NCBI GenBank assembly: GCA_030605085.1
Contig: JAUWBH010000151.1
Span: 1 to 15,784 of the forward strand
Direction of reading: 5' to 3'
DNA from: Promethearchaeota archaeon
GTDB lineage: Archaea; Asgardarchaeota; Lokiarchaeia; Sigynarchaeales; SOKP01
DNA: 15,784 bases
Shown piece after piece: positions 1 to 15,784 of this stretch. The notes below the pieces were generated by a model, which was not told where the DNA came from, searched no databases, and saw only the letters and a program-made list of their open reading frames with translations. Position numbers and translations under genes: made by a program. Every line of letters begins with the position of its first letter. The first letter of the stretch is position 1.

Positions 1-1
1 T

Positions 2-583: not shown

Positions 584-662
584 AATTAATTAATTATAGT
601 AATTTTAATTAATACCTCATTTTTTTCAATTCCAATTAAAAATCCAAAAAAATGTATTAACT

Positions 663-720
663 GATTGATACGCTTTATTCGTTAGAAATTAAACGATTAA
701 TACGATTAAAGGATTAATAC
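663..720. repeat. Iterated GATTRATAC motif upstream of the ribbon-helix-helix gene
   Basis: GATTGATAC (663-671), GATTAATAC (695-703) and GATTAATAC (712-720) lie in the same orientation. Inverted GTATTAA copies sit at 654-660 and 780-786. Ribbon-helix-helix repressors commonly bind repeated short operators near their own promoter, so this is a candidate autoregulatory site. The A+T richness makes partial matches cheap. Confidence 0.35.
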
Positions 721-722
721 TT

Positions 723-734
723 TTAATTTATAAA
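723..734 (+). promoter_or_regulatory. TATA-like box for the ribbon-helix-helix gene
   Basis: TTAATTTATAAA resembles an archaeal TATA box. It lies about 60 nt before the ATG at 793, which leaves room for a short leader. It directly abuts the last GATTAATAC repeat, so a protein bound there could block TBP/TFB. Confidence 0.35.
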
Positions 735-792
735 CCTTCGACAAAATATTTTATTAATATATTAATTCATATCCGTAGGGTATTAAATTAGA

Positions 793-996
793 ATGAAAAT
801 CATAACAATAAACTTGCCCGAGAAATATCTTGAAGGAATTAGAATTTTGAATGATTTAGGGATCTATGCTAGTCGTAGTGAAACAATAAGAGTCGCTTTA
901 AAAAGATTCTTATCGAATGAGTTAGAGTTTTTTGAAGATCTCGAAGAAGAGAATTTTAAACTGTTGGTTAAACATAATTCCAATAAACGTAATTAA
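793..996 (+). CDS. Ribbon-helix-helix (CopG/Arc-type) transcriptional regulator
   Basis: A 67-residue protein with the ribbon-helix-helix layout. A short N-terminal strand (KIITINLPEK, about 2-11) would pair in the dimer and contact the DNA major groove. Helix 1 follows (about 12-24), then the turn ASRSET (26-31) and helix 2 (IRVALKRFLSNEL). The SRSE-hR-A---F pattern is typical of archaeal CopG-like regulators. An acidic tail (EFFEDLEEEN) and a basic end follow. Length fits a stand-alone repressor. No toxin partner follows: the next gene is convergent and encodes a membrane protein. The repeats at 663-720 are the obvious candidate operator. Target genes cannot be told from sequence. Confidence 0.85.
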   Translation: MKIITINLPEKYLEGIRILNDLGIYASRSETIRVALKRFLSNELEFFEDLEEENFKLLVKHNSNKRN

Positions 997-1004
997 TTGA
1001 AATT

Positions 1005-1036
1005 ATAAGGAGCTTTTTATTCCTTATTATTTTTAT
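1005..1036. terminator. Hairpin plus T-rich tract between convergent genes
   Basis: ATAAGGA (1005-1011) and TCCTTAT (1021-1027) form a perfect 7-bp stem with a 9-nt loop, followed by a T-rich run. It lies 9 nt after the regulator stop and before the convergent stop at 1108, so it may end transcription from either side. Archaeal termination depends mainly on the U tract, so the stem may be incidental. Confidence 0.45.
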
Positions 1037-1107
1037 TATTTTTAAAAAAAATTAATTATTCTAAGTCTGTGATCAGTAATTAAAAAAATAAAATTTTTTA
1101 GTTATTA

Positions 1108-1554
1108 TTATTTTTGTCCTTCTTTTCTACCATAAATAAGATAAGCTAATATAAGTGTTTCGAGGATTATTAACGGATAGAGATATCCTGTTGTCGTTTG
1201 GAGCCAAAAATATGCGATTAAATCCACTTGTAGCATCACTCCGAAGAAAATAGCATCTAATAAAAAATTCATACCACAAATAATTGCCCCTAAAACGACC
1301 GCATCTAACGCCCACTTATCTGAAATTATCGGATTTTTTTGTTCGTACTTCCATAAATAAATCCCTAGAACGATAATAGAGATAATGAAAGTTACAATTA
1401 ACATTGCTATATAATATCCGAAATTGGGATTTTGGATTTGTTGACCTGTAGAAAAATCATAAAAAGTGGAACCTACAATTATAAACGCATAAAGCCACGA
1501 CGCAAAACCAAGAACGATTGCCAACACTAACGATTTAATATTGATTTCTGCCAT
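1108..1554 (-). CDS. Small integral membrane protein, four predicted helices, function unknown
   Basis: A 148-residue hydrophobic protein with four likely membrane helices: about 9-28 (LVLAIVLGFASWLYAFIIVG), 46-68 (YYIAMLIVTFIISIIVLGIYLW), 83-106 (DAVVLGAIICGMNFLLDAIFFGVM) and 120-143 (TTGYLYPLIILETLILAYLIYG). Both ends are short and polar. The pattern N-F-L-L-D-A in helix 3 and E in helix 4 puts acidic residues within the membrane, which could be functional. The start is supported by AAGGTAAG about 7 nt upstream and a TATA-like AATATATTT at 1585-1593. I cannot name a family. It faces the regulator gene tail to tail and is a separate unit from the ABC operon, which ends 163 nt upstream. Confidence 0.75.
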   Translation of the reverse strand: MAEINIKSLVLAIVLGFASWLYAFIIVGSTFYDFSTGQQIQNPNFGYYIAMLIVTFIISIIVLGIYLWKYEQKNPIISDKWALDAVVLGAIICGMNFLLDAIFFGVMLQVDLIAYFWLQTTTGYLYPLIILETLILAYLIYGRKEGQK

Positions 1555-1584
1555 AACATCTTACCTTCTTATTTATTATTTCAT

Positions 1585-1593
1585 AAATATATT
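1585..1593 (-). promoter_or_regulatory. TATA-like box for the small membrane protein gene
   Basis: AATATATTT on the minus strand, about 31-39 nt before the ATG at 1554, which would give a very short leader carrying the AAGGTAAG ribosome site. Confidence 0.4.
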
Positions 1594-1717
1594 GCTTATA
1601 TTTTTAATTTATTAATAAACACGAAAAAATAAATAGATTAGCATAAATTAAATGATTGAATCAAGTTTGAAATAATCAAGAATAAAAAATAAAAAATAAA
1701 AAAAAAAGATAATTAAA

Positions 1718-2473
1718 TTATAAAATTATTTCGTCGATAATCGTTCCATCTCTCATTTTTAAAAGTCTATCAGCGAGACGACCTATGGCAGGATCGTGGC
1801 TAACCATTAAGATTGTTTGATTAAGTTCTTTATTGAGGTCACGGAGTAGGTCAACTATTTCCCTTCCCATTTTTGTATCCAGTTCTCCTGTAGGCTCATC
1901 TGCGATAACCAAAGAGGGTTCGTTTGAAAGTGAGCGTGCGATTGCAACTCTTTGTTGTTCGCCACCAGAAAGCTCCGCTGGAAGATGGTCCATTCGTTTT
2001 CCTAACCCGACAACCTCAAGAAATTTAGTTACATTTTCTCTCCTCTCTTTTTCTGGTTTTTCCGCGAAAACTAATGGAAGCTCCACATTTTCGTAAGCTG
2101 TAAGAACCGGTACTAAGTTGTAGAATTGAAAGATAAATCCTATATTTCTAAGTCTCAAATTTGTTTGTTGCGTATCATCCATATGTGCTATATTAATTCC
2201 ATTAACATATACTGCGCCGTGTGTTGGATTATCTAAAGCACCAATCATGTTGAGTAGTGTAGTCTTTCCAGATCCAGAAGGTCCCATAACGGATACAAAT
2301 TCTCCTTTATCAATTTTCATGCTTAAACCGCTCAACGCACGAACTTCAACTTCACCCATATGATAGATTTTGGATAAATCAAAAATTTCGATCATTTTGT
2401 TGGGTTCAAGCTTATACTTCGTACCATCATCAACAATCCGTTTTACTTTTTCCTTTTTCTTTTTTAACCTCAT
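1718..2473 (-). CDS. ABC transporter ATP-binding protein, LolD/MacB type (second ATPase)
   Basis: A 251-residue nucleotide-binding domain that should power the FtsX/MacB-type permease encoded upstream in the operon. Visible motifs: A-loop Tyr in SKIYHMG, Walker A GPSGSGKT, Q-loop IFQFYNL, signature LSGGEQQR, Walker B LVIADEPTGELD, and the switch histidine in MVSHD. The FQFYNLVPVLTAYENVELP stretch is characteristic of the lipoprotein-release/macrolide-export subfamily. A lysine-rich N-terminal tail (MRLKKKKEKVKR) precedes the fold. The start is secure: GGAGGT lies 8 nt before the ATG. It begins 19 nt after the first ATPase stops and closes the operon. Two different ATPase genes with one giant two-module permease suggest a heterodimeric ATPase pair. 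The substrate is unknown. Confidence 0.93.
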   Translation of the reverse strand: MRLKKKKEKVKRIVDDGTKYKLEPNKMIEIFDLSKIYHMGEVEVRALSGLSMKIDKGEFVSVMGPSGSGKTTLLNMIGALDNPTHGAVYVNGINIAHMDDTQQTNLRLRNIGFIFQFYNLVPVLTAYENVELPLVFAEKPEKERRENVTKFLEVVGLGKRMDHLPAELSGGEQQRVAIARSLSNEPSLVIADEPTGELDTKMGREIVDLLRDLNKELNQTILMVSHDPAIGRLADRLLKMRDGTIIDEIIL

Positions 2474-2492
2474 GAATAGCTACCTCCAATTT

Positions 2493-3305
2493 TTAGTCGT
2501 TCCAAATCTCTTCTAAAGGCTTACCACCTTTTCTTTCGCCAGTGATTTCTCCATCAGAAAGCGTAATAATTCTATCGGCTGTTTCGGCTATCCTAAAATT
2601 ATGCGTCACCATCAGAATTGATTGCCCAGCGTTTTTTAATTCGAGAAAGATTTTTATTATTTGTGTAGTCGTTTCAGAATCTAATTCTCCTGTAGGTTCG
2701 TCTGCTAGTAATATCAAGGGGTCATTAGCCATTGATCTAGCCACAGTAACTCGTTGTTGTTCACCCCCCGACAATTGGGTTGGTCTATGATGCATCCTCT
2801 CTCCTAGTCCTACCAAAGTAAGAAGTTTCTTAACTTTTTCTTCTGCTTCTTTACGATTTTTTTTATCAAGTAACATTGGTAATTCGACATTTTCGTACGC
2901 TGTAAGGATTGGAAAAAGATTGTAGAATTGGAAGATTAATCCAATCCTCCGGAGTCGTATTTCTTTGTGTTCTTTATTTGTCATTTTAGAAATGTCTTGT
3001 CCTGTTCCCGCACCATCCATATTGTATATAATCGCACCCGAGTCTGGAAAGTCAAGCGCACCAAGGCAGTTTATAAGCGTTGTTTTTCCAGCACCAGAAG
3101 GTCCAACGATCGCTACGAATTCCCCTTCTTTCATTTGAAGATTAATGTTGTTAAGGGCCGTAACCTTGTAAGCTCCGAGCATGTAGGCTTTATTAAGGTT
3201 TCTCACGTCAAGAACTAAGTTTGAATCAATTGGTACCTTTTTTGAAGATTTCCTCTTTTTTTTGTTATTTCGAGTTTTGTTTTTTTTCGTATCGCGATTT
3301 TTAAT
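2493..3305 (-). CDS. ABC transporter ATP-binding protein, LolD/MacB type (first ATPase), probable AUU start
   Basis: Nucleotide-binding domain with A-loop (NKAY), Walker A GPSGAGKT, Q-loop IFQFYNL, signature LSGGEQQR, Walker B LILLADEPTGELD and switch His (MVTHN). It is a paralogue of the second ATPase. The first conventional start, GTG at 3206, has no ribosome site and would drop the first beta strand (NLVLDVRNLNKAY). The frame stays open upstream to 3305, where an ATT sits 5 nt after GGTGAT (3311-3316). That start gives 270 residues with a lysine-rich tail matching the one on the paralogue. No ATG, GTG or TTG exists in frame between 3305 and 3206. It starts 24 nt after the permease stop, so it is co-transcribed. 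The ATPase call is firm; the start is inferred. Confidence 0.9.
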   Translation of the reverse strand: MKNRDTKKNKTRNNKKKRKSSKKVPIDSNLVLDVRNLNKAYMLGAYKVTALNNINLQMKEGEFVAIVGPSGAGKTTLINCLGALDFPDSGAIIYNMDGAGTGQDISKMTNKEHKEIRLRRIGLIFQFYNLFPILTAYENVELPMLLDKKNRKEAEEKVKKLLTLVGLGERMHHRPTQLSGGEQQRVTVARSMANDPLILLADEPTGELDSETTTQIIKIFLELKNAGQSILMVTHNFRIAETADRIITLSDGEITGERKGGKPLEEIWND

Positions 3306-3329
3306 TTTATATCACCTTTTTCATATTAA

Positions 3330-6300
3330 TTATCGAGTGCGTACAGCATCAATAATGTTAATGTTTGCTGCCCATCTGCTTGGAAAACGGGAACTAACAA
3401 TTGCGGTGACAACGGTAACGACCACTAGGAGAGCAATTGTGACCCAAGGAATTGTAAATGTAACACTGAGAAATCCAGTGTCAGGCATTGAAAAGACCAT
3501 TAATGCACCATTTATTAGACCCGCAATAATTCCGATTAAGACGCCTAAGAACGCTACTACTAAAGTTTCTCCTGAAATTGTTCTAATTACACCTTTTTTG
3601 CTCAATCCAATCGATCTAAGCATTCCAATTTCCCTCCTACGAGCCATTGTAGATAGAAGACAATGAAGTGCGAGGCCAATCATAGCAATTATAATGGCAA
3701 AGATCAACACTCCACTAAAAGTCATCGTTATCAAACCGATGAAGCCTCTGAACATTTGGAGTAAAAACGATCTACTAAACGCAAATCCTACGATATATCC
3801 TTCATCTTCCATGAATTCGGTTATATTCTCTAACACTTCCTCGTCATCTTCTCCTTCTTCAATCCATACATACCATTCAAATACATTTGTTCTAAATGTA
3901 AGAGTATAAGTTTTGAGATCTACTATGGACCAGCCTCCATCAGCTATATTTTCCAATTCATCTTCCAAATCATCCTTAACATCTTCGATATCTTCTGGAT
4001 TATCGCTGTGAATTAAAACCGTTGTAACGTAATCGTTAGATGGATCAGAGCCTGCGTAATCGACATAAACTAATTCTCTTGCTTTTTCGTAATTAATGTA
4101 AACAGCATTTTCAGTTCCCGAAACATCCGGCATTGTCTCATAACCTGTTTGCCAGCCATATCTTTCTGTTCTATATAATTTTGGATCTTTTATTACTGCG
4201 GCAACTTGAAATTTAGACCAAGTCAATGGATTAATAAGATCTTTTACAGATTTCAATGTTGTAAAATTTAACCATTCAATATATAATTCGAAATCGCTGT
4301 GGTATGTTTCATTATTCCCCGTTATTCTCAGCTTGAGCTCACCTGTTAGAGGATTAATATATTGATGATCTGTATTAAACTCAAAAGGACGAAAGTCTAA
4401 TTCTTGAGAATTAATACTTCTAAGATAATCAAATGAACTAGTATAAAAGTTAAATGCTTCTAAATCAAGGCTATCAATTGTGGCATTAACGGAAGACTCT
4501 ATTGAACCAGATAAGGCTTTATAATAATTAGTTGGTGTTAAATAAACTGAAATGTTAAATTCGAACCTATTATTATCACTAACGTATGTTAAATTATTAT
4601 CGTCTGAAGCTGTTAAACTGTCTCCATCGCCAGAACCTATGCCACCATATTTAAACGCAAAAACCGTATTTAACGCATTTAGAGTTACATTGAAGAGGGT
4701 AGTATTTTGGGGGAATATATACACATAATCCCCTACTCCAAAATTAGGATCCCCGTTCTCTCTCTGGTTGTAATAATATGTCTCATCAATGACACACACA
4801 TCACCACCTAAATCAAGAATCTCCTCTAATGATAAATCTTTATATTTAGAAGCCACTTTTTTTATTTTATGGCTTCCAAAAGTTGAGTCAGATTTCAAAT
4901 TATTATAATCATTAGCTCTTATTCCAATAACTTGAGTTAAGGGATCTAATGTCGCCCCCTGTGTTGGTGTAGCATAATCCATTCTTGCCGTATAATAATC
5001 AATTTGATCAACATCTTCTAATTCGTCTTCAACTGAAGAAAAATTAAACCAATTGGGTTGAATAAGGTCCAATTCAGTATTTCCCGTTCGAGATTCTTGC
5101 TTAAATATTATATCTGTACCAGCACCAGGCAGTTCATGAAGAGTTAATTCTTCGTAAGTTTCCCAAGAAATGAATATATGATAAGTGTCTTCCTGACCAC
5201 CAATCATTCCCATACCCGCAAAACCCTCAATTTCTTCAACGACTGCGATAACTTCCAGTTCTTCTGTTACTGAATTTTCTAAAGCATGGTCTCTATCATT
5301 ATCAAACAAGGCTTCTAAATTTGGGTAAGTAAATCCAAGAGAAAATTTCACTAATATTTCATCGTCAACATCTATATCAAGCTCATCTGATGCTATTTCT
5401 GTAACTAATACGGTGTATTCCTCTGAAAGGTCGTCCATCATTTCGTCAAGGGTCATATCGTCGGGTGCGATAATGTTTGTTTTTGTCATATGCTTTTTAA
5501 TCTTATCGGTATCTATGATATGAACCATTATAGATTCGTCCCAATCTTCTTCAAGATACTCGTGTCCGAACCATTGATGCTCATCTTCGTTCCATATGAG
5601 AGCATTAGCGTGAGTTATTCCCATAACATCATCTACACCATCAACATCACGAAGATCATCCTCAAAATCCCTTGGTGTATCACCTGTAAAGATTCTTATG
5701 TCACATCCCATGATATCGTTAACAGATGTATCGGCACCGGCTTGTATAGACCCCATCATAACGCTTATACCAACTAGATAACTCGTTGTTAAAGCAATCA
5801 TTGAAAATGTCAGAACTGTTCTTTTACGGTGTCTCAACACGTTCTTTTTTGTGAGTAATTTTGTTTGTTTCAAGTATGGACTAAAAATCTTGATAAAAAC
5901 GCCAACAATGGGTTTTACAGCGAGTGCCATGAGCAATATCATACCTAACAATGTCAATGTAGGAGCAATCATAGAGATCATAGATTCCTCTTGTGAAGGA
6001 GGACCATGACCCTGTTCAAAAGTGGTAGCAAATATAAGATAAGAACCATAACTGATTAGAAAAATACCAAGCAATATATATGCGATGGTTCTCTTTACAC
6101 GCTTTTTCTCTCGTTCTGTCTTTTGAGCAAGGGGATTCAAACACTCAATAAGAGGCTTGCGACTTGCTTTCCAACTCGGATAGATTGAGGCTATGACACA
6201 AGATATTACGCCTATAGCTAAAGTTGCTGCGATTGTCTGCGGATAAAGAATAATTTCGTACTCCATTCCTTCAAAGTACTCACCAAATTGTCCTGGCATA

Positions 6301-7516
6301 CCCTTAAGGGATTCTATAACCATATAAAAGATAAGGTACGATACAAAAAATGAACATATCGTGCCAATTATAGCTCCTACTACTCCCATTATAAATCCCT
6401 GCGCCAAAAACATTCTAAACGTCTCAGATTTTGACGATCCTATCGCTTGGAGCATGCCCGTCTCGTATTCTTGTTCTTCCTTTATAATGTTAAAAATATT
6501 TAGTATAAGAATTATGGCGAGAATTAATGCGATCAAAGCAAACATCATAAACATAGTACTCATAGTTGTTACAGAGGCGTTAATATCTTCAACCGTTTCG
6601 GTTTTAAGGTCTGCGACACTCCAATCGTCTTCGTCAAGCTTTTTTTCCAGCTTCTTTACAATATTTTCAACATTATTAACATCATCTACACCGATAACTG
6701 CGAGATTATATTCGTCGTCATCAACATCCTCTTCTCCATCAACAAGTTCGTGGGCGTTATCAATATTAGTAAATATACATGGTCCTTGTGAAGGTGTCGA
6801 GTAGTCTGAAGGGGTTTCCGGGTCAAAATCACGAGCCTCCCCCATATCTCTTACTACTGCAACAGCGGTATACTCTATCCAAGTGTCAGTATCGTATATT
6901 GAGTAGCCCAGCTCTTCTCCATCCACAGGTAATATCCAAACGCTATCTCCTGCTTCAAAATCCTTACCGAGTTTAATTTTTAAGGATTCTGTAATTACAA
7001 CGACTCGATCGTCTGTATCTTTATCTTCATTATCAAGTAATTCTTCAATTGTATCTCCTTCAACATCAGAATCTAATATTTCAAAAATGCCCCCGAGATC
7101 TTTTTCGTCTTTCGATTCTGGATCAATTCCATAGACCGCCGTTCTCTCACTATCTTCGTCTTGATTTCCATCATTCGTCGCACTTACATAAACCCTATAT
7201 CCTGAGATTCTAAAAGAATAATCGGTAATACCGTCAATGTCATCGAATACTTCTTCAAGATCTTCTGGGTCAAACCAATCGTCGTCTATATCGCTCGTGC
7301 GTACAAGAATATCCGCGGTGCCCATTCTTCTATCGATGTCGTTTACAAACATAACATTGAAAGAATCGGAGGCGATCATTATTCCCCCAAAAAGAGCGAC
7401 ACTTAACGCAGATTAGCAGAAACTGCTAAATCTATCACGAGTGTCACTGTTGTGAGAATATAACGTGTCTTCCTTCTCATCATATTCCGAATAGCTATTT
7501 TAAGAATAATTCCCAT
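3330..7516 (-). CDS. Giant FtsX/MacB-type ABC permease, coding sequence interrupted by a 29-nt BHB intron (exons 7516-7434 and 7404-3330)
   Basis: Read with the intron removed, this is a 1385-residue permease of an ABC exporter. Exon 1 starts at ATG 7516 behind GGAGAAG, and encodes MGIILKIAIRNMMRRKTRY and the first half of membrane helix 1. Splicing joins it to ...ISVALFGGIMIASDS, giving a clean helix at about 19-39. Then follow a large acidic outer domain (about 40-305), helices near 308-332, 360-390, 418-437, 467-490, 503-524 and 557-579, a second outer domain of about 660 residues, and a C-terminal FtsX module (about 1249-1365) with the conserved cytoplasmic loop RRREIGMLRSIGLSK. The protein thus holds two MacB-like modules. 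Without splicing, translation stops after 37 residues; the long frame alone would begin at Met37 and lack helix 1. It lies 36 nt after padR and 24 nt before the first ATPase. Confidence 0.88.
7405..7433 (-). other. Candidate 29-nt bulge-helix-bulge intron in the permease message
   Basis: In the transcript, the outer helix is 7447-7440 with 7403-7396 (8 bp, one G-U). The central helix is CGUG 7439-7436 with UGCG 7410-7407 (4 bp including two G-U). The opposed 3-nt bulges are AUA (7435-7433) and UUA (7406-7404). The inner hairpin is 7432-7423 with 7419-7411 (9 bp, one bulged U, UUU loop). Cutting each bulge after its second base (AU|A, UU|A) removes 7433-7405 and creates GTG ATA AGT GTC, in frame. 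The intron shifts the frame and brings a UAA at 7405-7403. The exact cut cannot be set from DNA alone, because shifting by one base either way yields the same product. Confidence 0.85.
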
Positions 7517-7552
7517 ATTTAATCTTCTCCATTACTTATATTATTTCTATTA

Positions 7553-8167
7553 TTAATAATTCGCAAATTCAAGTACATTTTCGTTCTGTATCTCTTTTTT
7601 AATATTTGAAAGTATAGAATCTATCATATTGAGATTCTTAGTTAACAATTTAATTTGTTGTTTAATTATCTCTTTATGATATTTTAAAACGTCAATTTTA
7701 GAATCAATTGTACCTTCCTTTAAAAGTTCCATTTCTGGACTTGAAATCAATTTTTCTAAGTATTGAAGAAATGTAGGATTTGCCTCATCTGTAATTCCCG
7801 CAGTTGACAGAATAATAGACTTTATGGATTCTACCATAGTTGAATGTTTTTGAAGGATCATTTTCAATGTATCTCCTCCTTTTGGTGTTATTTCGTATTC
7901 TTTTCTTTCTCTTCTTCCATCCTTCTTCAATTTATATGTTATTAATCCTTTCTTGTTTAATGAATCTAAAAGCGGATAAATTGTAGAAGAAGTTGGTTGA
8001 AAGTACCCTAAAGTCCGTTTATCAATTTCTTTTTGAAGTTTATATCCGTGACAACAATCTTTTTCTAATAAAAGTAGTATAAGAGCGCTCATGAATCCCT
8101 TTTTCATCGTAATTTCGAAAGAATTAACTATTTCTCCGATGTTTTTGTTACTTTTATTTTCTGTCAT
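7553..8167 (-). CDS. PadR-family transcriptional regulator
   Basis: A 204-residue PadR-like regulator. A winged-helix domain spans about 20-105: ITMKKGFMSALILLLLEKDCCHGYKLQKEI, then the recognition region QPTSSTIYPLLDSLNKKGLI and the wing KKDGRRERKEYEITPKG. A C-terminal helical region (about 110-200) would dimerise. The sequence SSTIYPLLDSLNKKGLI is the PadR hallmark. The protein opens the operon with the ABC exporter, the usual place for a PadR repressor that senses the exported or a related compound and controls its own operon. Cys residues (EKDCCHGY) sit at the start of the wing domain. There is no Shine-Dalgarno site before the ATG. Candidate operators are the repeats at 8324-8349. Confidence 0.9.
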   Translation of the reverse strand: MTENKSNKNIGEIVNSFEITMKKGFMSALILLLLEKDCCHGYKLQKEIDKRTLGYFQPTSSTIYPLLDSLNKKGLITYKLKKDGRRERKEYEITPKGGDTLKMILQKHSTMVESIKSIILSTAGITDEANPTFLQYLEKLISSPEMELLKEGTIDSKIDVLKYHKEIIKQQIKLLTKNLNMIDSILSNIKKEIQNENVLEFANY

Positions 8168-8538
8168 TTTATTTAGCTTTCAAATATGTTTTTGGTAAAA
8201 TTTTTTGTTAGATTTTTTTTGATAAATTTTTTTGAAATAAAAAAAAACTGTAGACCAATTTTCATAAACTAATTTTTTATTAAATAAGGTTAATTTAGAA
8301 AATAAACCAGAATTTAAATATGTATCTATCTTACTCATCTATCTTACTTATTATTGGATCAGTAGAAACATAGAAATAGTTAATATAAAAAATAATACCC
8401 TAATTAAATAGTATTACATTTCATTTGTCTTTGTTCAAATTATTCAAATTATTTTTCCTCTTAATTGTTAAACTATAATTACGTAATTCACATTTATTAA
8501 AATATATATTTTAAACATTAACAATTCTCTCGTAAGTT
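8168..8538. promoter_or_regulatory. 371-nt divergent control region between padR and the dehydrogenase
   Basis: No coding frame is evident. It holds a tandem 13-nt repeat ATCTATCTTACTY at 8324-8349 (12 of 13 identical), two abutting TTCAAATTA copies at 8434-8451, a perfect 12-nt palindrome AATTACGTAATT at 8477-8488, and a TATA-like AATATATATTTT at 8500-8511 placed 28-39 nt before the dehydrogenase ATG. On the minus strand ATTTAAAT near 8312-8319 could be the TATA box for padR, with a leader of over 100 nt. Regulatory assignments are inference. Confidence 0.5.
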
Positions 8539-9588
8539 ATGAAAATCACAAAATATTATAGTAATACTGATGTGAGACTCGAAGAAATGCCTAGACCTAA
8601 GATTGGCCCCGGTGAATTCTTGGTTAAGGTAAAGAAATCGGGTATTTGTGGTTCAGATATCCTTGAATATTATAGGTTTGCTAAAATGAAAAAATTGGGG
8701 GTTGATAGCCTTGTTCTTGGCCACGAAATAGCTGGAGATATAGTTGAGGTTGATGAAGGCGTAATAAATCTTAAAGTTGGCGATCGAGTATTTGTATCGC
8801 ACCATGGTCCTTGTTTTAATTGTCATTTTTGCGAATTAGGGCATCATACAGCATGTCATTTACTTCATAATACTAATTACGACCCTGGAGGCTTTGCCGA
8901 GTATCTTAGAGTCCCCAACATTAATGTTGAAAAAAAAGGCGTTTATGTGTTAGATGACAATGTTTCTTACGAAGAAGGGGTTTTTATCGAACCGTTGGGA
9001 TGCGTCTGTCGAGCGCAAAGGTTAGCCAATATCAAGAAAGGACAGACTCTATTGATATTAGGTAGTGGCGTTTCAGGATTATTGCACCTCATGTTAGCAA
9101 AAGCGAAGGGCGTAGAGAAAGTAATAACTACAGATATAAGCGAATATCGATTAAAATTAGCTAAAGAATTTGGTGCTGATGGAGCGTTACACGCAACTGA
9201 GGATCTTTCAACAGCAGTAAAAAAAATTAACGATGGAATACCTCCAGATGTTGTAATTGTCTGTACTGGAGCTTTATCTGCAGCAAAACAAGCGATTGAA
9301 TACGCTGGACCCGGAACGACAATAATATTTTTTGCAGTTCCTAAACCTGGAATAAATCTCGAAATCCCAATTAACGATTATTGGAGAAATGAAATTACTA
9401 TTATGACTTCTTATGGAGCGGCTCCTCAAGATTTAGACGAGGCATACCACTTAATCTTTTCAAAGAAAGTTTCGGTAGTTGACTTGATAACCCATCGTTT
9501 TCCGCTCAGTAAGGTTGGAGAGGCATTTAAAGTTGTTTGTGAAGCGAACGAATCTCTCAAAGTTATACTAGAACCAGACAAAAGTTAA
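8539..9588 (+). CDS. Zinc-dependent medium-chain NAD dehydrogenase (threonine/sorbitol dehydrogenase type)
   Basis: A 349-residue medium-chain dehydrogenase/reductase. Catalytic zinc ligands are visible as Cys37 (GICGSD), His62-Glu63 (GHE) and Glu151 (FIEPLGC). The structural zinc lobe has Cys92, Cys95, Cys98 and Cys106. The Rossmann motif is G175-S-G177-V-S-G180, and Asp199 at the end of the second strand favours NAD over NADP. This pattern fits polyol, sugar-alcohol or threonine dehydrogenases; the exact substrate cannot be told. The ATG has no Shine-Dalgarno site, and the TATA-like box 28-39 nt upstream suggests a nearly leaderless message. It is transcribed alone, diverging from padR and converging on the coiled-coil gene. 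Confidence 0.92.
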   Translation: MKITKYYSNTDVRLEEMPRPKIGPGEFLVKVKKSGICGSDILEYYRFAKMKKLGVDSLVLGHEIAGDIVEVDEGVINLKVGDRVFVSHHGPCFNCHFCELGHHTACHLLHNTNYDPGGFAEYLRVPNINVEKKGVYVLDDNVSYEEGVFIEPLGCVCRAQRLANIKKGQTLLILGSGVSGLLHLMLAKAKGVEKVITTDISEYRLKLAKEFGADGALHATEDLSTAVKKINDGIPPDVVIVCTGALSAAKQAIEYAGPGTTIIFFAVPKPGINLEIPINDYWRNEITIMTSYGAAPQDLDEAYHLIFSKKVSVVDLITHRFPLSKVGEAFKVVCEANESLKVILEPDKS

Positions 9589-9632
9589 ATTTTCTCTTAA
9601 ATATTTCAACAACCAATTTCTACTTTATTTAG

Positions 9633-10175
9633 TTATTCTCTGGCAAGTTCTAATTTCTTCCATTCTACTTCTAACTTCTCTTTTTCCACTTTTAACTTCT
9701 CTTTTTCCACCTCGAGTTTCTTTGTTTCCAATTCTAATCCATCTATAGTTGTTTTCATAGTATCCCTTTCTACTTCTAATTTTTTCTTCCCTGCTTCCAA
9801 GTTATTCTTCTCCTCCTCTAATCTTTTCCTCTCCGGTTCTAATTCTTCCTTAGCTATTTTAAGGGTCTCGTTTTCATGTGCGAATTTCTCCTTTTCTGTT
9901 TCCAAACTCTTTTTCTCATCCTCTAACTTCTTCCTCTCCGCTTCTAGTTCTTCAATAGCCATTTTTAAATTTACCTCTCCTAGTTTTAATTCCTCTTTTT
10001 CCGCCTCCAATTTACTATATTCCGCTTTTAACTTCTCTTTCTCAGCCTCTAAGTTCTCTTTTTCTTCTTTTAAATCCTTCTGTATTTCCTCTACGCTTTT
10101 CCATTTTACCGTTTCACCGGTTATTTTTCCTAGTTTTATTTCAGCCATATTAAGCATATCGTTAAACGCTTGCAT
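9633..10175 (-). CDS. C-terminal part of a split gene: half repeat plus long coiled coil
   Basis: As an open frame from the ATG at 10175 it encodes 180 residues. The first 20 or so (MQAFNDMLNMAEIKLGK) are the second half of a repeat unit whose first half lies in the frame just upstream. The rest (about 35-180) is a highly charged coiled coil in clear heptads of the type LEAEKEK, rich in Glu and Lys, with no membrane segment. The frame is the same as that of 10200-10679, separated by TAA at 10202-10200 and eight sense codons (AEALDFSK). I think both are one 348-codon gene. There is no convincing ribosome site before this ATG. Function unknown; a coiled coil suggests a structural or scaffolding role. 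Confidence 0.6.
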   Translation of the reverse strand: MQAFNDMLNMAEIKLGKITGETVKWKSVEEIQKDLKEEKENLEAEKEKLKAEYSKLEAEKEELKLGEVNLKMAIEELEAERKKLEDEKKSLETEKEKFAHENETLKIAKEELEPERKRLEEEKNNLEAGKKKLEVERDTMKTTIDGLELETKKLEVEKEKLKVEKEKLEVEWKKLELARE

Positions 10176-10199
10176 TTTGCTAAAGTCTAAAGCTTCTGC

Positions 10200-10679
10200 T
10201 TAATTATATTTGGCTAGCATATCATCGAACAAGTTCTTTTTTTTTTGAAGAACAGGGTGACTAAGGTAACTTAAAAAGGTTGCGAGGGAATTTTGTGTGA
10301 GTTCGGGCAGACTCATGCCTAAGGAGCTTGCCATTAAATTATCCAATCTTTTTTTCAATTCTACGATCTCATAAGCGTAATTTACGAGTTCAGGCCTTTT
10401 TTGAGCACTTGCGGATTCTCTCTCATCATATTTCCCTAATTTTATACTAAGTTGATCTAGTTTACGAATAATGTCCTCCATTTTCGTGAAGTTTTTCGAT
10501 CTAGCAATGTAATAGAATTCCATTAATTCTTCTAATAATCTTGGATACTCGTAGATCTTAGGATGATCTAAGTAATACATTAGAGATTCAAGTTGCTTTT
10601 CTGTTTTTAACTGTAAACCGAGCCATTCTCTACCCTTTTTCTCTTTAATCTCATTTTTTATGGCTTCTATTTTTTCCAT
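10200..10679 (-). CDS. N-terminal part of a split gene: tandem YLxHP repeats
   Basis: 159 residues from ATG 10679 to TAA 10202-10200. It contains an internal duplication: residues 30-83 (LESLMYYLDHP... to ...IKLGK) align without gaps to residues 132-185 when the frame is read through the stop. Shared landmarks are Y36/Y138, L37/L139, HP39-40/141-142, F64/F166, KM66-67/168-169 and IKLGK79-83/181-185. The stop falls opposite Ile58 of the first copy. The annotated protein therefore ends in the middle of its second repeat. The family is not recognised; the repeats look all-helical. The gene may be a pseudogene, be read through, or carry a consensus error. Confidence 0.6.
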   Translation of the reverse strand: MEKIEAIKNEIKEKKGREWLGLQLKTEKQLESLMYYLDHPKIYEYPRLLEELMEFYYIARSKNFTKMEDIIRKLDQLSIKLGKYDERESASAQKRPELVNYAYEIVELKKRLDNLMASSLGMSLPELTQNSLATFLSYLSHPVLQKKKNLFDDMLAKYN

Positions 10680-10837
10680 AAATATTTAATAGTGTCAATC
10701 TTTAAATGTATTTTCTTCAATAAAATTAAACACAAAAATGAATTTTGAAACTATATATTTTATGTGATCTTGAACTACAAGGGATGAGTTTTCTTAAGCA
10801 AGCAGTCATGGTTTTAAACACGTTTTTTTTTGAATAT

Positions 10838-11746
10838 TTAAACTCTTAAAAGTTTGCTCTTTTGGAGATGCTGCACAATTATCCAATATTCCCAGTGGTT
10901 ATATATTTTTTTAAGAAATCCTTTCATCTTTTTCTTGGGGAAGAACAAGTCTTTTTTTAGTAGTTTTTTTACTTTTTCTTCAAAATCAGGACCTAACTTT
11001 AAGTTAACAACTGTCACATCAATTATTTTTTGATTTTCTTTAATTTTCCTCCTCATATACTCAAAAGGCGTTTTATCAGGATGTTTTATTATATAAGAAT
11101 GGCTAGATGTAAGATATTTTGCACCTTCAAGAAATATGATCTCAACCCTATCAATATCCTCCAAATATCGATCAATTGAACACTCTCTAAAACCATACCA
11201 CGGACCAAAACCCTCGACTCCTGGTTCAGGCTGATCAAATCCCATACAACTAATATGCATTATTTTTTCTTTTGGAAGGTAAAGGCCAACATGCGATTTT
11301 GAATGCCCTAATAATGGAATAGTTTCGACTTCAAAATCTTCAAATTTTAATATAACTCCAGCTTCAAAATCACTTACGCTTTTACATTTATTATATTTAT
11401 TTAACTTTCCAAATTCTTCTATTGTTGAGAACTCCATTGCCTCCTTAAACCCAAAGCTCTCGTAAAAGTTTTTTAAATTGATAAGACATTTAGATTCGGG
11501 ATTAGGAGCGTGAATCTTTGCACCCCTCTGTTCCCAGGCGTAAACATGCGTGATGTGATCCATATGTCCGTGAGTACAAACATAATCCGAAATAGGACCA
11601 TAATACTTATCAATTTCATTGATTAAATTCGGTTCAATATTAGCATCGAGAACAATAGTGTTTTGATTTCGATCTTCTTTAGGTAAAATTAGGAGCCCAT
11701 CACAGCAAGAAAAAACTGAAGGAGGATTAATTTGATGTAAGAGCAA
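10838..11746 (-). CDS. Metallo-beta-lactamase-fold hydrolase, 5' end uncertain
   Basis: The conventional frame from TTG 11746 gives 302 residues. Dinuclear metal ligands are clear: His59, His61, Asp63 and His64 (THGHMDH), His148 (GHSKSH), bridging Asp171 (SCMGFDQ) and His216 (SSHSY). This makes it an active hydrolase of the broad glyoxalase II/lactonase-like group; the substrate cannot be told. The frame continues coding-like upstream (IRKVSDDV from 11770, normally the first strand of this fold), but no ATG, GTG or TTG is there until ATG 11800, which meets TAA after four codons (MSLP). A TATA-like ATAAAAT at 11821-11827 would place a leaderless start almost at 11800. The TTG is reported only as the first conventional codon. 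Monocistronic by appearance. Confidence 0.85.
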   Translation of the reverse strand: MLLHQINPPSVFSCCDGLLILPKEDRNQNTIVLDANIEPNLINEIDKYYGPISDYVCTHGHMDHITHVYAWEQRGAKIHAPNPESKCLINLKNFYESFGFKEAMEFSTIEEFGKLNKYNKCKSVSDFEAGVILKFEDFEVETIPLLGHSKSHVGLYLPKEKIMHISCMGFDQPEPGVEGFGPWYGFRECSIDRYLEDIDRVEIIFLEGAKYLTSSHSYIIKHPDKTPFEYMRRKIKENQKIIDVTVVNLKLGPDFEEKVKKLLKKDLFFPKKKMKGFLKKIYNHWEYWIIVQHLQKSKLLRV

Positions 11747-11820
11747 AACATCATCGGAAACTTTTCTTATCTGAAGATTATCTATTTATGGTAAAGACAT
11801 TGAACCAAATATTCTCGATA

Positions 11821-11827
11821 ATTTTAT
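11821..11827 (-). promoter_or_regulatory. TATA-like box for the metallo-hydrolase gene
   Basis: ATAAAAT on the minus strand, centred about 25 nt before the ATG at 11800, the distance expected for a leaderless archaeal message beginning at that ATG. Confidence 0.35.
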
Positions 11828-11896
11828 GCTATTTTTTTTCTATTCTAGAAAAAAATAAATCAGAAGTTAATAATTTAACCTTATTAATAAACTTGA

Positions 11897-11913
11897 CATG
11901 AATTGAATTCATG
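11897..11913. promoter_or_regulatory. Perfect 8-nt-arm palindrome upstream of the metallo-hydrolase
   Basis: CATGAATT and AATTCATG flank a single central G. It is upstream of the TATA-like box and could be an operator. No regulator gene is adjacent, and it could also be chance in AT-rich DNA. Confidence 0.3.
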
Positions 11914-12003
11914 GTATTCATAGTTTCGAAAAATCTAATCGTTTTTTTTAAGACCCATATAAATTTTAAAAATTAAGAAAAAAAGAAAAAAATAAAATCA
12001 AAT

Positions 12004-12837
12004 TTAAAGACCAACTGGGCCACTCTGGTAAATTTCGTACGCCTCGTCTACTGAAACATTTTCGTGGACAATTGCTCTTACTGCTTTAATCATGCCAATA
12101 GGTTTATCTGATTGGAAAATATTTCTCCCCATATCTACGCCTACTGCGCCTTTCTCCACAGCATTCTTTGCCATTTGTAATGCGTCTCTTTCCTCTATTT
12201 TCTTGCCACCAGCTATAACTATTGGTGCCGGACAAATGTTAGTAACATCTTCGAAGTTTTCACAATAATATGTCTTTACAAATGTGGCGCCCATTTCTGC
12301 TGCCATTCTACTGGCCATGCCAAGATAGCGGGCATCTCTAACCATCTCTCTTCCAACAGCTGTTACTGCCAAGGCTGGGATTCCATATTGTTGCCCCCAA
12401 TTTACCAATTTAGATAAATTCATCAAAGATTGTTTCTCATATTCCCCACCTACAAAAATAGAACAAGTTATAGCTGATACATTTAATCTTATCGCATCAT
12501 CAATAGTTACATTAATTTCTTCGTTAGAAAGTTCTTTAAGCATGCTGGCTCCTGCTGATACTCTCAAAACTATTGGAATGTCTATCTCAGCTGGTACGCA
12601 GTTTCTTAGCATACCTCGAGTTAATATTAGAGCATCAGCATATTGAAATAAAGGAATCATATCATCAAAACACTTTAATTGGCCGGGGATATTTCCAAAA
12701 TAACCATGATCAATCGCTTTAATGGCTTTAAAGCGCTAACATTGCACTTTTAAAGCTAACATCACGCATCGACCAGATTTAGGTTTGATGATTCTATTTA
12801 ATCGGTTTTGAAATCCCCAATCTCCTACAACTGTAAT
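12004..12837 (-). CDS. lsrF: LsrF-type class I aldolase/thiolase, interrupted by a 39-nt BHB intron (exons 12837-12758 and 12718-12004)
   Basis: The spliced frame gives 264 residues very close, from memory, to LsrF, the DeoC/class I FBP aldolase-like enzyme that moves an acetyl group from phosphorylated AI-2 breakdown product to CoA. Exon 1 encodes GDWGFQNRLNRIIKP...GRCVM; splicing completes VMLAIDHGYF, the motif with the conserved active-site Asp. Later landmarks are Schiff-base Lys175 (VKTYY), PIVIAGGKK, GVDMGRNIFQS and the C-terminal VDEAYEIY. The long open frame alone begins at Met47 and would lack this catalytic motif. The only well-placed start is ATT 12837, 6 nt after GGATGTGA (12844-12851); GTG 12847 is one base out of frame because of an eight-A run. 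No lsr operon is nearby, so the true substrate may be another phosphorylated ketone, as in archaeal FBP aldolase or ADH synthase. Confidence 0.88.
12719..12757 (-). other. Candidate 39-nt bulge-helix-bulge intron in the lsrF-like message
   Basis: In the transcript, the outer helix is 12774-12768 with 12714-12708 and 12766-12764 with 12717-12715 (10 bp around one bulged G). The central helix is GAUG 12763-12760 with CAUU 12724-12721 (4 bp). The opposed 3-nt bulges are UUA (12759-12757) and AAA (12720-12718). The inner hairpin is 12756-12744 with 12736-12725 (12 bp, one bulged A, 7-nt loop). Canonical cuts UU|A and AA|A remove 39 nt and join GTG ATG TTA GCG ATT GAT CAT. The intron is a multiple of three but carries an in-frame TAG (12738-12736), so the unspliced message cannot give full-length enzyme. 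Confidence 0.88.
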
Positions 12838-12988
12838 TTTTTTTCACATCCTAATTTTTTAAAAGTTTTCTTTTATAAAGTGATTAAGGATCTTTATTTT
12901 ATTATTTTTTCTAAATAAATGAAATAAAACACAAAAACAAGTAAAAATAAGATTATAACAAATGAAATTCATATTTAAACCTATTTTA

Positions 12989-13120
12989 TTATTTAGAAAT
13001 AGACTTATAATATTCTTTATTAATAAAATCTTGCACTGCGTCCTTTTTTATCCAATAAGGTACAATAATTACGGGGATGTTATTTTCTTCTAATAAGTAA
13101 TTCTCTTCTAAAATTGATTT
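12989..13120 (-). other. 43-codon coding-like extension after the zinc-ribbon gene's TAG
   Basis: Directly after the TAG at 13123-13121 the same frame stays open for 43 codons to TAA 12991-12989. The product (KSILEENYLLEENN, then IPVIIVPYWIKKDAVQDF and a short tail) looks like real protein: alternating strand and helix patterns, Pro, Trp and Tyr. It has no start codon of its own near the TAG. It may be a lost C-terminal part of the zinc-ribbon protein, a readthrough product, or the tail of another decayed gene. Confidence 0.4.
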
Positions 13121-13969
13121 CTAAAGCAAGTCCAAGAACTCTTCGACTTTATTCCTTATTTTCGTCGTTAATTTAGGAGAAAACCATTGTTTGATAAAAC
13201 TTTTTATTAAACCTAATCTAAAATGATTTATTTTTGGAATCATTAAATCACTAGAAATTTTATCGATAAGATCATCCTCATAAATCTCATCTACAATTTC
13301 GAGAACATCTTTCGTGAATTCTGATTCTTTTATAAGTTTAGCGATAGCCTGCTGAATTATGATTAGTTGCTCTTCCTCGTCGATAATTTCTAACGCTTTT
13401 TTTACAATTGACTCTTCGAATTTTAGTTTTTCCTCCCAAGGAGTTTGAAATATGTGTTGTTGTGAATCCATTAAGAGAACATTCTTTTCTTTTAACTTAA
13501 TTTTGCTAAGATCAGGTTCTTCTATATAAGATATTCCTGATTTACCTTTATATCTACTAGGTAACATACTATTACCAATTGCATTAATTATATCAGCCTT
13601 AACATTAAAATTTTCGTTTACTATAACGCTAACTGGGTAATTAAAAATCTTTGCATGCATCATACTAAACACGCCATACATTCCAAACATTTGTATTAGT
13701 TTTCGTAATGTAATTACACCAGCCGCTTCTCTTTCGGTTTCTTCTGTAGGCATGCTCATTTGAATGTCTATCCTTTCGTATCCTCGTATATTTCCCTTAG
13801 AATCTACAAAAACTATGAATTGATGCTCGGGACAGACTGCTCCTGGAGGAACTTGAATCTTGATTGTACCAAATTTCTTTTGAGAAAAAACTGTCTCGGG
13901 GACATTAAGATTTTTGACGGTTTGGCAAATTGGACAGGTTACCTCTATTTCTATAATTTGAGGTTCCAT
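13121..13969 (-). CDS. Zinc-ribbon protein of unknown function
   Basis: 282 residues. The N-terminal 85 or so form a zinc ribbon: Cys12-x2-Cys15 (CPIC) and Cys46-x2-His49 (CPEH), followed by a beta stretch QFIVFVDSKGNIRGYERID. From memory this module recurs in Asgard archaeal proteins, but its role is not known to me. Residues about 90-160 are mixed alpha/beta (FGMYGVFSMMHAKIF, YPVSVIVNE), and about 165-282 are mostly helical and acidic with a basic C-terminus. There is no signal peptide or membrane helix, so it is probably cytosolic. The frame continues in a coding-like way past the TAG stop. It is transcribed apart from its neighbours, with 234 nt before the next gene. Confidence 0.75.
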   Translation of the reverse strand: MEPQIIEIEVTCPICQTVKNLNVPETVFSQKKFGTIKIQVPPGAVCPEHQFIVFVDSKGNIRGYERIDIQMSMPTEETEREAAGVITLRKLIQMFGMYGVFSMMHAKIFNYPVSVIVNENFNVKADIINAIGNSMLPSRYKGKSGISYIEEPDLSKIKLKEKNVLLMDSQQHIFQTPWEEKLKFEESIVKKALEIIDEEEQLIIIQQAIAKLIKESEFTKDVLEIVDEIYEDDLIDKISSDLMIPKINHFRLGLIKSFIKQWFSPKLTTKIRNKVEEFLDLL

Positions 13970-14203
13970 AATGAGGTCTCTTCTTTATTAATTATAATTA
14001 AAAAATAATAAGCGATTTTTTTATATTTTTTTTCCAATAATAAACACAATAATTTATAATTAAAAAATTTAGTTTTTTAAGTTTATTTTCTATACTAAAA
14101 AGTGCTAGATTCTTAATTAATTATTAATTTTCTCCGAGAGACATTCCAGAAACTATTAAGACATTTAAATTTTAACTTTTTCTGTAAAAAAATAACATGA
14201 AAA

Positions 14204-15124
14204 CTAAAAAATGGTTTCCAACCAAGGAATAATTCGCCTTAGAGCTTCATCAATGTTTTCCTGAAAAATTAAATGAGATGTATTTTCTAAAATTTCTAAT
14301 TTTTTATTCTTACACTTTAATCTATCGTATATTTCCTGCATATATTCGACAGAAAATAAGGCATCATCGTCTCCGTTAATTATCATGATTGGTGTTTCTA
14401 TTGTTTCGAGAGGTCGTGCTAAAGGAGCACTCATTTGAGTATAAATTGCTGTCATCGTATATTTATCCGAAAGGATCTTATCTTTCATCAGCAAGTCAAT
14501 CCTTTTAATCACCTCCTCTGATTTCGCTAATTTATAGAAATCTAAATATGTATAAATACTTAAACTTGATTTTGGAGCTGTTTTCGCTAATTTTGGTACT
14601 TCTTGAATTAAATCTATTAGCTTACCTTCGATTTTGATAATCCTTTTATATGCCTCCTCATTAAAGATTGCTGCATTATGACAAATTCCAGCCTTAAACC
14701 TCGTATCAAACGCAACACTATAGAGCGTCGTTATACCACCTAAACTTGAACCCATAACCACAATATCCTCTCCAAATTTCTCTCTGACATAAGTATTTAC
14801 ATCATACACAGTTTTTACAAACATTTCCATCGTAAAATGCCCTCTTTTTCCCTCGCTTAAACCGTGTCCAATCATATCTGGAGCAACTACTCGATAACCT
14901 TTTTGAAATAGATTATAGCAAAACTCCGCATAGAATCTGCTATAAACGGAAGTCCCATGGATAAATATTATTGTTTTGTCTGACTCCTCTTTATCGTAAA
15001 TGTCTAAGTGGATTTTTAATCCTTCGGAAGTAATGTATTCTTCTTTAATTATTTTTTTTATTTCAAGTGGATCAGTGTTTAGGACATAATTGAACCAATA
15101 ATCTTTATATTCTAATTTACGCAT
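14204..15124 (-). CDS. Alpha/beta-hydrolase (monoglyceride lipase/lysophospholipase-like)
   Basis: 306 residues with a complete alpha/beta-hydrolase layout. The oxyanion-hole turn is HGTS (56-59) after strand TIIFIHG. APDMIGHGLSEGKRGH (81-96) matches the monoglyceride-lipase/lysophospholipase signature region. The nucleophile elbow is G125-S-S127-L-G129, the acid is Asp254 in INGDDDALF, and the histidine is His284 in TSHLIF. A helical cap lies at about 155-230. No signal peptide is seen, so it should act in the cytosol or at the inner membrane face. The substrate is probably an ester or lipid but is not determinable here. AGGAAAA lies upstream of the ATG. The gene stands alone between the zinc-ribbon gene and the transposable element. 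Confidence 0.88.
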   Translation of the reverse strand: MRKLEYKDYWFNYVLNTDPLEIKKIIKEEYITSEGLKIHLDIYDKEESDKTIIFIHGTSVYSRFYAEFCYNLFQKGYRVVAPDMIGHGLSEGKRGHFTMEMFVKTVYDVNTYVREKFGEDIVVMGSSLGGITTLYSVAFDTRFKAGICHNAAIFNEEAYKRIIKIEGKLIDLIQEVPKLAKTAPKSSLSIYTYLDFYKLAKSEEVIKRIDLLMKDKILSDKYTMTAIYTQMSAPLARPLETIETPIMIINGDDDALFSVEYMQEIYDRLKCKNKKLEILENTSHLIFQENIDEALRRIIPWLETIF

Positions 15125-15368
15125 ATTTAATACAATTTTCCTAAGATATTAAATTTTTAAAAAAATCCTCAGAAGATAGTTTTGTTTAATGAGTTCTTTA
15201 TTTAATCCAAAACAATCGAAAGTAAAAAGAAAACTATTATTCCAACTGTTCGTTGAAATTCTATAAAACTTATAATTTCTTATAAATCAAAAATTTTTTA
15301 CTCTTTTAGATTTTATATTTTGGCTCTTCCTTTTACATTATAATCCCATTTATCCCTTAATAAGTATC

Positions 15369-15461
15369 ATGAGTTCAGAACGATTATTAAAAATTGGAGA
15401 TGTCGCAACTCTTTTAGGAGTCACTACTCAAACTCTTAGAAATTGGACGGTAAGTAGATGA
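15369..15461 (+). pseudogene. tnpA: Remnant of IS607-type tnpA: MerR-like helix-turn-helix only
   Basis: A 30-codon frame, MSSERLLKIGDVATLLGVTT followed by QTLRNWTVSR and stop. It matches the MerR-like helix-turn-helix that begins IS607-family serine recombinases (LKIGxVAxLLGVxxQTLRNW). The remaining 150 or more residues, including the resolvase catalytic domain, are absent. Its TGA overlaps the tnpB ATG as ATGA, as expected of the natural tnpA end, which suggests an internal in-frame deletion that kept both termini. It cannot be an active transposase. It could still bind DNA weakly as a mini-repressor, but that is speculation. Confidence 0.75.
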
Positions 15462-15784
15462 AACAAACCATAAAATTCAGATTGCACCCGACAGCTGCAC
15501 AAGAGCAAAAATTACACGAAATTTTTAAAATTTATAATAAAGTCAAGCGAGTGGGATATAAGCTATTTTATAGGTTAAAAGATATAGAGTATAATAAAAA
15601 TGAAAAACGAGGGCTCGTGCAACCTAAATTGATGGATATTTGTAATAATAATCCTTATGTGAATAGTATCCTCATAGATTGTGAGAATAAATTAGCCCAG
15701 CAACAAACATGGTTTGAGAAGCGAGAAACCTATCTGACGCGTCAATTAACTACGATTTTGGTGAAGATCGAACAGATAAAGGAA
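15458..15784 (+). CDS. tnpB: TnpB RNA-guided nuclease/OrfB of an IS607-like element, N-terminal part, cut by the right window edge
   Basis: The first 109 codons are present. MKQTIKFRLHPTAAQEQKL is the standard TnpB opening, followed by YNKVKRVGYKLFYRL and QPKLMDICNNNPYVNSILID, typical of archaeal IS607/IS605 TnpB. TnpB proteins are RNA-guided DNA nucleases that act near element ends. The RuvC-like catalytic residues and the zinc ribbon lie beyond the window, so whether this copy is an active nuclease or a dead, repurposed form cannot be judged. It is translationally coupled to the tnpA remnant by an ATGA overlap. The right end and guide-RNA region are not visible. Confidence 0.9.
   Translation, partial: MKQTIKFRLHPTAAQEQKLHEIFKIYNKVKRVGYKLFYRLKDIEYNKNEKRGLVQPKLMDICNNNPYVNSILIDCENKLAQQQTWFEKRETYLTRQLTTILVKIEQIKE

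Follow-up and report, generated by a model that had tools for sequence, protein, structure and literature searches.

The contig JAUWBH010000151.1 of a Promethearchaeota archaeon (assembly GCA_030605085.1; Lokiarchaeia), analysed here over positions 1 to 15,784 and called the window, raises the question of how a gene with a stop codon in its frame could still yield a conserved enzyme. An LsrF-type aldolase gene lies on its minus strand (12004-12837) as two pieces in the same frame, split by a 39-nucleotide (nt) insert that carries TAG. The insert is very probably an archaeal intron of the bulge-helix-bulge (BHB) type in the precursor messenger RNA (pre-mRNA), removed by EndA-type splicing. An EndA-type intron is supported because of homology, selection on exon 1, the geometry of the BHB, the EndA and RtcB genes of relatives and 12 further BHB introns in lsrF, and the same evidence upholds the mRNA intron proposed in a preliminary description of this DNA. 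EndA would cut the lsrF pre-mRNA within both bulges, at 12758/12757 and 12719/12718, and RtcB would join the exons. The parts of the gene are:

12758-12837, minus strand: exon 1, ITVVGDWGFQNRLNRIIKPKSGRCVM plus the TT of a Leu codon; start uncertain (frame reading; 22-codon and start-region comparison with relatives)
12719-12757, minus strand: predicted 39-nt BHB intron, AGCTTTAAAAGTGCAATGTTAGCGCTTTAAAGCCATTAA (frame, pattern scan, cut rule, shuffle test)
12736-12738, minus strand: in-frame TAG within the insert, which stops unspliced translation (read from the frame)
12004-12718, minus strand: exon 2, the A of Leu, then AIDHGYFGN ... SGPVGL and a stop (frame, PF01791)

The 218-amino-acid frame at 12004-12660 (minus strand) is a DeoC/LacD aldolase (PF01791, 70.5 bits), and the joined protein of 266 residues matches the LsrF structures 3gkf and 3glc over residues 8-261 (E ~3e-89). 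Judged by family and full-length match, the joined product is an LsrF-type class I aldolase. Its four best database relatives are 92-93% identical and each reads GRCVMLAIDHGYFGN unbroken, and no high-identity phage match to the gene was found. At the window site the in-frame TAG and 39 nt intervene, and their removal leaves the junction VML^AIDHG, where ^ marks the cut. Reading the frame upstream agrees with the earlier claim that the N-terminus of the long frame is encoded there, in the same frame, behind the TAG-bearing insert. Canonical cutting, with each 3-nt bulge severed after its second base, gives the intron 12719-12757 and VMLAIDH, as had been proposed; the cuts join ATGTT to AGCGATTGAT, restoring VML-AIDHG, and four cut placements yield the identical product. 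The intron had been placed exactly before IDHG. It does lie just upstream, but the Leu codon is itself split by the cut (TT^A), and an Ala stands between the junction and the motif. The Asp of IDHG is presumably catalytic in LsrF and the class I aldolases, and the unspliced lsrF product would be inactive.

The RNA at 12700-12782 has a folding energy of -27.4 kcal/mol (z -3.72), which 2 of 200 shuffles equal, and the base pairs (bp) of the core have a probability of 0.77-0.78 in a 200-nt context. The elements of the fold are:

12708-12774, minus strand: BHB RNA element with outer helix, core, two 3-nt bulges and inner hairpin (folding)
12760-12763, minus strand: 5' strand of the 4-bp core helix, GAUG, in exon 1 (cut-rule analysis, pair probabilities)
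12757-12759, minus strand: 5' bulge UU^A, with the predicted 5' splice site 12758/12757 (cut-rule analysis)
12725-12756, minus strand: inner hairpin of 12 bp with one bulged A and a 7-nt loop (folding, pair probabilities)
12721-12724, minus strand: 3' strand of the core helix, CAUU (cut-rule analysis, pair probabilities)
12718-12720, minus strand: 3' bulge AA^A, with the predicted 3' splice site 12719/12718 (cut-rule analysis)

The insert was compared with its own dinucleotide shuffles, its borders being fixed by protein homology, and shuffles were counted when they had 4/4 core pairs and an inner fold at least as stable. With all four equivalent placements allowed, none of 3000 shuffles did so.

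Exon 1, compared over 22 codons with seven chosen relatives, differs at 10-16 nucleotides but at only 0-3 amino acids. The exon is thus conserved as protein, and therefore the part of the gene ahead of the stop is still selected as part of a protein. When the whole gene is set against its two nearest uninterrupted relatives, the ratio of nonsynonymous to synonymous substitution (dN/dS) is 0.015 and 0.024, dS being saturated. Comparisons of uninterrupted rows (n=45, two of them outgroups) have a median of 0.032 and a range of 0 to 0.066. Loci L071 and L073, which the start motif used did not fit, and the copy in genome G029, which has stops, were omitted from the tree, entropy and dN/dS sets. 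Relaxed selection had been named as a sign that would speak against the intron; the dN/dS values and the differences in exon 1 point instead to strong purifying selection on the window gene.

Probable introns in the lsrF genes of related archaea

A search by protein found 25 genome loci. Of these, 23 are titled Lokiarchaeota or Lokiarchaeia, and all matches that exceed 65% identity over most of the gene are among them; the remaining two, a Thaumarchaeota and a Deltaproteobacteria metagenome-assembled genome, are 63-65% identical. Full-length lsrF copies at 80% identity or more number 55, in 54 of 83 genomes (class of G001), and one further genome, G038, has only an lsrF piece at a contig end. 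The continuity of VMLA-IDHG in relatives that the preliminary description had expected is borne out, since no copy among the 55 has an insert at VML^A and 45 are one open frame. Nine others carry inserts; the remaining copy, in G029, lacks an insert but has two stops in its frame. The nine interrupted copies hold 12 BHB introns at four sites other than that of the window. The five sites are:

lsrF site 1: QNRL^NR, 30 nt, in G034
lsrF site 2: VML^AIDHG, 39 nt, in the window only
lsrF site 3: DHG^YFGN, 30 nt, in G028, G026 and G027
lsrF site 4: AGG^KK, 36 nt, in G027
lsrF site 5: GVD^MGRN, 32 nt and frame-shifting, in G002, G003, G004, G053, G077, G026 and G027

The gene has two introns in G026 and three in G027. 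In all 13 lsrF introns, that of the window included, the core is fully paired (4/4) and flanked by two 3-nt bulges, and the cut after the second bulge base restores the conserved protein each time. The joined proteins match relatives at every site, and it is by this homology that the cuts are judged to give a functional product. An intact paralogue elsewhere had also been named as a sign against the intron; each of the nine intron-bearing relatives has only one close full-length lsrF copy among the matches listed, and besides this main copy, G002, G003 and G004 have only paralogues of ~30% identity and fragments. Sites 3 and 5 lie in invariant stretches and sites 1, 2 and 4 are unremarkable (rank fractions 0.63, 0.32 and 0.49), so that insertion only into the most conserved sites was dropped as an idea.

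Other irregular forms of the gene were seen. Of the 16 proteins P0121-P0136, one of which is the window's own, five (the database proteins P0128, P0129, P0130, P0133 and P0135) begin with M(Y/H)(I/V)(H/R)EYFGN. These beginnings would seem to fit a start inside a site-3 intron, and gene finders seem to mistake such genes. Extra partial copies of the lsrF C-terminus lie near the main gene at L017:5521-5634 (97%) and L012:6404-6829 (81% identical to the query). At L025:8001-8063 a 5' lsrF piece (21 codons matched) is followed by unrelated sequence ahead of another gene.

Shuffle tests of 16 introns gave 0-5 of 3000 for 14 of them, and 21 and 49 of 3000 for the two weakest. Site 5 of G027, at 21, is weakly supported; 11 other lsrF introns are at 5 or fewer. 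Scanning both strands of the window and of L001-L025 for the BHB pattern returned 195 candidates. Ranks 1-5 and 8 went to the window intron and to five introns of site 5, unrelated matches stood at 6, 7 and lower, and the scan missed site 1 (weak core) and an intron in a permease gene of the window (bulged stem; described below). In a second scan by stem energy (window and L001-L021) the top rank went to an uninterrupted coding stretch of L018, and that scan was therefore not used for a genome-wide count. As unrelated matches rank among the predicted introns, the BHB pattern was rejected as sole evidence.

Site 5, with introns in seven genomes, allows compensatory change to be assessed; the window site has one sequence. 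Of 98 cells in the site-5 alignment 95.9% are paired, compared with 23.5-43.9% for slid structures. Five of 14 pairs have changes on both sides, a number that 2 of 500 shuffles reach, and eight cells are doubly changed against a shuffled mean of 2.5 (0 of 500 shuffles). The sample is seven related sequences, which are few, and its cells are not independent events. The introns at site 5 show compensatory changes, and their structure is conserved across the seven genomes.

The protein tree (55 rows) requires five changes for the site-5 intron and two for that of site 3, and the intron-bearing rows of G002, G003 and G004/G053 adjoin intronless rows. Tree support is moderate; among the five rows that have the site-5 intron only, the firmly supported branches require two changes or more. 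From host to host the site-5 introns are 59-88% identical, compared with 28-61% at four-fold degenerate sites (near-identical pair G004/G053 excluded), or 28-45% once the sister pair G026/G027 is also excluded. These identities and the tree would suit either a lateral spread of the intron or a single ancient intron that was lost repeatedly and whose sequence is under some constraint. At four-fold sites, similarity within 25 codons of site 5 is higher than farther away in 14 of the 21 pairs, the same in one and lower in six (14-19 sites each, pairs not independent). Uninterrupted pairs have no such difference (identity 0.354 near site 5 and 0.360 far from it). The exon flanking site 5 may have undergone recent co-conversion. 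A covariance model of the site-5 introns (R1) run over the 83 genomes returned the seven lsrF copies at E <1e-10 and nothing comparable elsewhere among the scored candidates, which numbered 80 per genome out of hundreds to thousands and so give no proof of absence. The next-best match, in G058, has an E of 0.0046 per genome, about chance level for 83 genomes.

The genes for splicing are widespread in the same set. EndA-family matches occur in 82 of 83 genomes, mostly as separate frames of ~200 residues, with two or more in 68 and in all nine intron-bearing genomes; RtcB was found in 75, including eight of the nine. The EndA of G002 is two genes. One is nearest 3p1z, which we take to be the A. 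pernix enzyme, among PDB structures and keeps the His missing from 3ajv; in the other the His aligned with that of 1a79 is replaced. This His is presumably catalytic in EndA. No tRNA gene, as a local control for tRNA introns, was found in the window or in the 13 loci scanned. The two-subunit type of EndA reportedly accepts a broad range of BHB motifs (excerpt of PMC7714728), and EndA recognises a 4-bp core flanked by two 3-nt bulges (excerpt of PMC4090602).

Splicing weighed against other explanations

A number of observations count against an EndA-spliced intron. Transcription, cleavage and ligation of the lsrF mRNA are all inferred from structure and sequence. The fold had been described as a strict BHB with a 10-bp outer helix. 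Its GAUG/CAUU core, UUA and AAA bulges and 12-bp inner stem stand, but the outer helix reaches 10 bp only with a bulged G, and the minimum-energy fold differs, the strict BHB lying 1.5 kcal/mol higher (-21.2 vs -22.7 kcal/mol). The three outer pairs adjoining the core have a probability of only 0.25 in the 200-nt context. The simple BHB score of the insert, 33, is equalled by two matches on the plus strand of the window; the pattern is frequent by chance, and therefore it is evidence only at an insert defined by protein. At site 1 (G034) the inner stem is weak, at -0.7 kcal/mol, and 49 of 3000 shuffles do as well, and at site 5 further pair types are no more numerous than in shuffles, 442 of 500 of which have as many. 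G026, a genome with two lsrF introns that may be incomplete, gave no RtcB match, and the intron-bearing rows L017 and L077 have nearest-pair dN/dS of 0.077 and 0.069, compared with the uninterrupted maximum of 0.066. No intron occurs at site 2 in any of the 54 genomes with lsrF, and the window intron therefore rests on one record. The start of the gene is also irregular. No in-frame ATG, GTG or TTG lies ahead of exon 1, which has ATT (12835-12837) at the position of the relatives' ATG or GTG start; a GTG farther upstream is one base off the frame across A8 (12835-12847). Sequencing error, a rare start or decay are possible causes.

The missing standard start and the single record at site 2 would also suit a decaying pseudogene or an assembly error, with the hairpin a chance insertion. 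Broken or misread copies do exist, as the G029 copy with its two in-frame stops and no insert indicates. This explanation is unlikely for the window copy, in which both exons are conserved as protein while synonymous sites are saturated. The BHB geometry restores the protein exactly, as it does for the 12 introns in other assemblies, and the permease gene in the same window has the same pattern.

The insert might instead be kept in the mRNA and its hairpin skipped by the ribosome, that is, by programmed translational bypassing. Short inserts with hairpins and stops are known inside coding genes, such as T4 gene 60 and the byp elements of yeast mitochondria. Bypassing is very improbable here; it is not known to require 3-nt bulges or a 4-bp core. 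The core and two 3-nt bulges at 13 of 13 lsrF introns are the features by which EndA recognises its substrates (excerpt of PMC4090602), and EndA and RtcB genes are present in the relatives.

Translation of the insert, with TAG read as an amino acid such as pyrrolysine, would add 13 residues. The 39 nt are divisible by three and hold TAG as their sole in-frame stop; a TAG is also present in the 30-nt insert of G034, and in another gene of the window (13121-13969) 43 sense codons come after an in-frame TAG. Such readthrough is nevertheless scarcely credible: site-3 inserts have TGA or TAA, site 4 has several stops, the 32-nt inserts of site 5 shift the frame, and 13 extra residues ahead of IDHG occur in none of the 55 copies.

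A remnant of a self-splicing group I or II intron has a negligible probability, 39 nt being far too short. No Rfam match was found anywhere in the window at the gathering threshold, although such introns occur in archaea (excerpt of PMC6125680).

Other interrupted genes and known BHB introns

Inserts of the same kind interrupt two further genes, one for an ATP-binding cassette (ABC) permease in the window and rtcB in relatives:

7405-7433, minus strand of the window: BHB intron in the ABC permease gene, TLVI^SVALFGG, 29 nt and frame-shifting (homology, fold, shuffle test)
L097:333-361 (G029): BHB intron in rtcB, GVGY^DINCG, 29 nt, 4/4 core (shuffle test)
L098:1485-1513 (G063), minus strand: BHB intron in rtcB, GVGY^DINCG, 29 nt, 4/4 core (shuffle test)
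L099:282-311 (G081): BHB-like insert in rtcB, LPD^AHQG, 30 nt, 3/4 core, 10-bp inner stem

The preliminary description counted the lsrF intron as a second one. Its first is probably that of the permease, which is borne out by the core CGUG/UGCG with 4/4 pairs, a strong outer helix, a fold z of -3.89 and the joined protein. The joined permease N-terminus of 223 amino acids matches over its length, at 50-63% identity, in 22 places in 21 genomes. The 4-bp core and two 3-nt bulges that define a BHB are present in the 13 lsrF introns, the permease intron and two of the three rtcB introns, the third having 3/4 of the core. The GYDINCG motif at the first rtcB site presumably binds metal in RtcB.

It is possible, as a tentative extension, that this Lokiarchaeial group harbours mobile short BHB introns in mRNA, which are spliced by the tRNA machinery and have moved laterally into conserved motifs, with as many as three in a gene. 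With rtcB among the targets, splicing would then control its own ligase.

The cbf5 intron is reportedly linked to hetero-oligomeric EndA, going by the title of Yoshinari 2006. In the 83 genomes a TruB_N domain of cbf5 occurs in 80, and none has an interior stop among the matches listed. The introns described here lie in lsrF and the ABC permease rather than in cbf5. A 2020 paper (PMC7714728) names the cbf5 mRNA as the single further case of a BHB intron to have been reported in archaea, apart from the HVO_1309 leader described there. The crenarchaeal cbf5 pre-mRNA intron is similar in its patchy presence among relatives (excerpt of PMC2738675); the introns here differ from it in belonging to another phylum and to a metabolic enzyme, lsrF, with five sites, up to three introns per gene and lengths of 30-39 nt. 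Archaeal pre-tRNA introns share the 3-nt bulges and 4-bp core (excerpt of PMC4090602), and the tRNA genes of the Asgard lineages Atabeyarchaeia and Freyarchaeia are intron-rich (excerpt of PMC11291895). Those introns lie in tRNA genes, whereas here the split sequence is coding and conserved as protein. An untranslated mRNA leader is likewise an mRNA substrate of EndA, but in lsrF the coding frame is interrupted. Related introns also recur at several places in tRNA genes; in the present case one mRNA carries them, at sites shared across lineages.

Among the papers listed by searches of the open literature, none reported BHB introns in protein-coding genes of Asgard archaea, subscription journals and preprints being largely outside that coverage. 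What appears to be new is not the mechanism, which would be the same, but the genes, the phylum, the several introns per gene and the patchy distribution. At least three genes of Lokiarchaeia (lsrF, permease and rtcB) carry BHB inserts, which occupy several sites and number as many as three in one gene, and the gain, loss and spread of introns in archaeal mRNA become testable by comparison. The pattern also suggests that gene prediction truncates such proteins. Asgard archaea are the archaeal group nearest the eukaryotes, and these genes would offer natural substrates for the spliceosome-independent splicing of mRNA in that group.

Two other frames of the window are irregular. Within 12970-13969 (minus strand) the frame of the gene at 13121-13969 ends at a TAG and continues with 43 sense codons (KSILEENY...KSISK) to the next stop. 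At 11650-11850 (minus strand), upstream of a metallo-beta-lactamase gene, an ATG reads MSLP, then TAA, and is followed by a plausible continuation, IDNLQIRKVSDDV, into the annotated frame.
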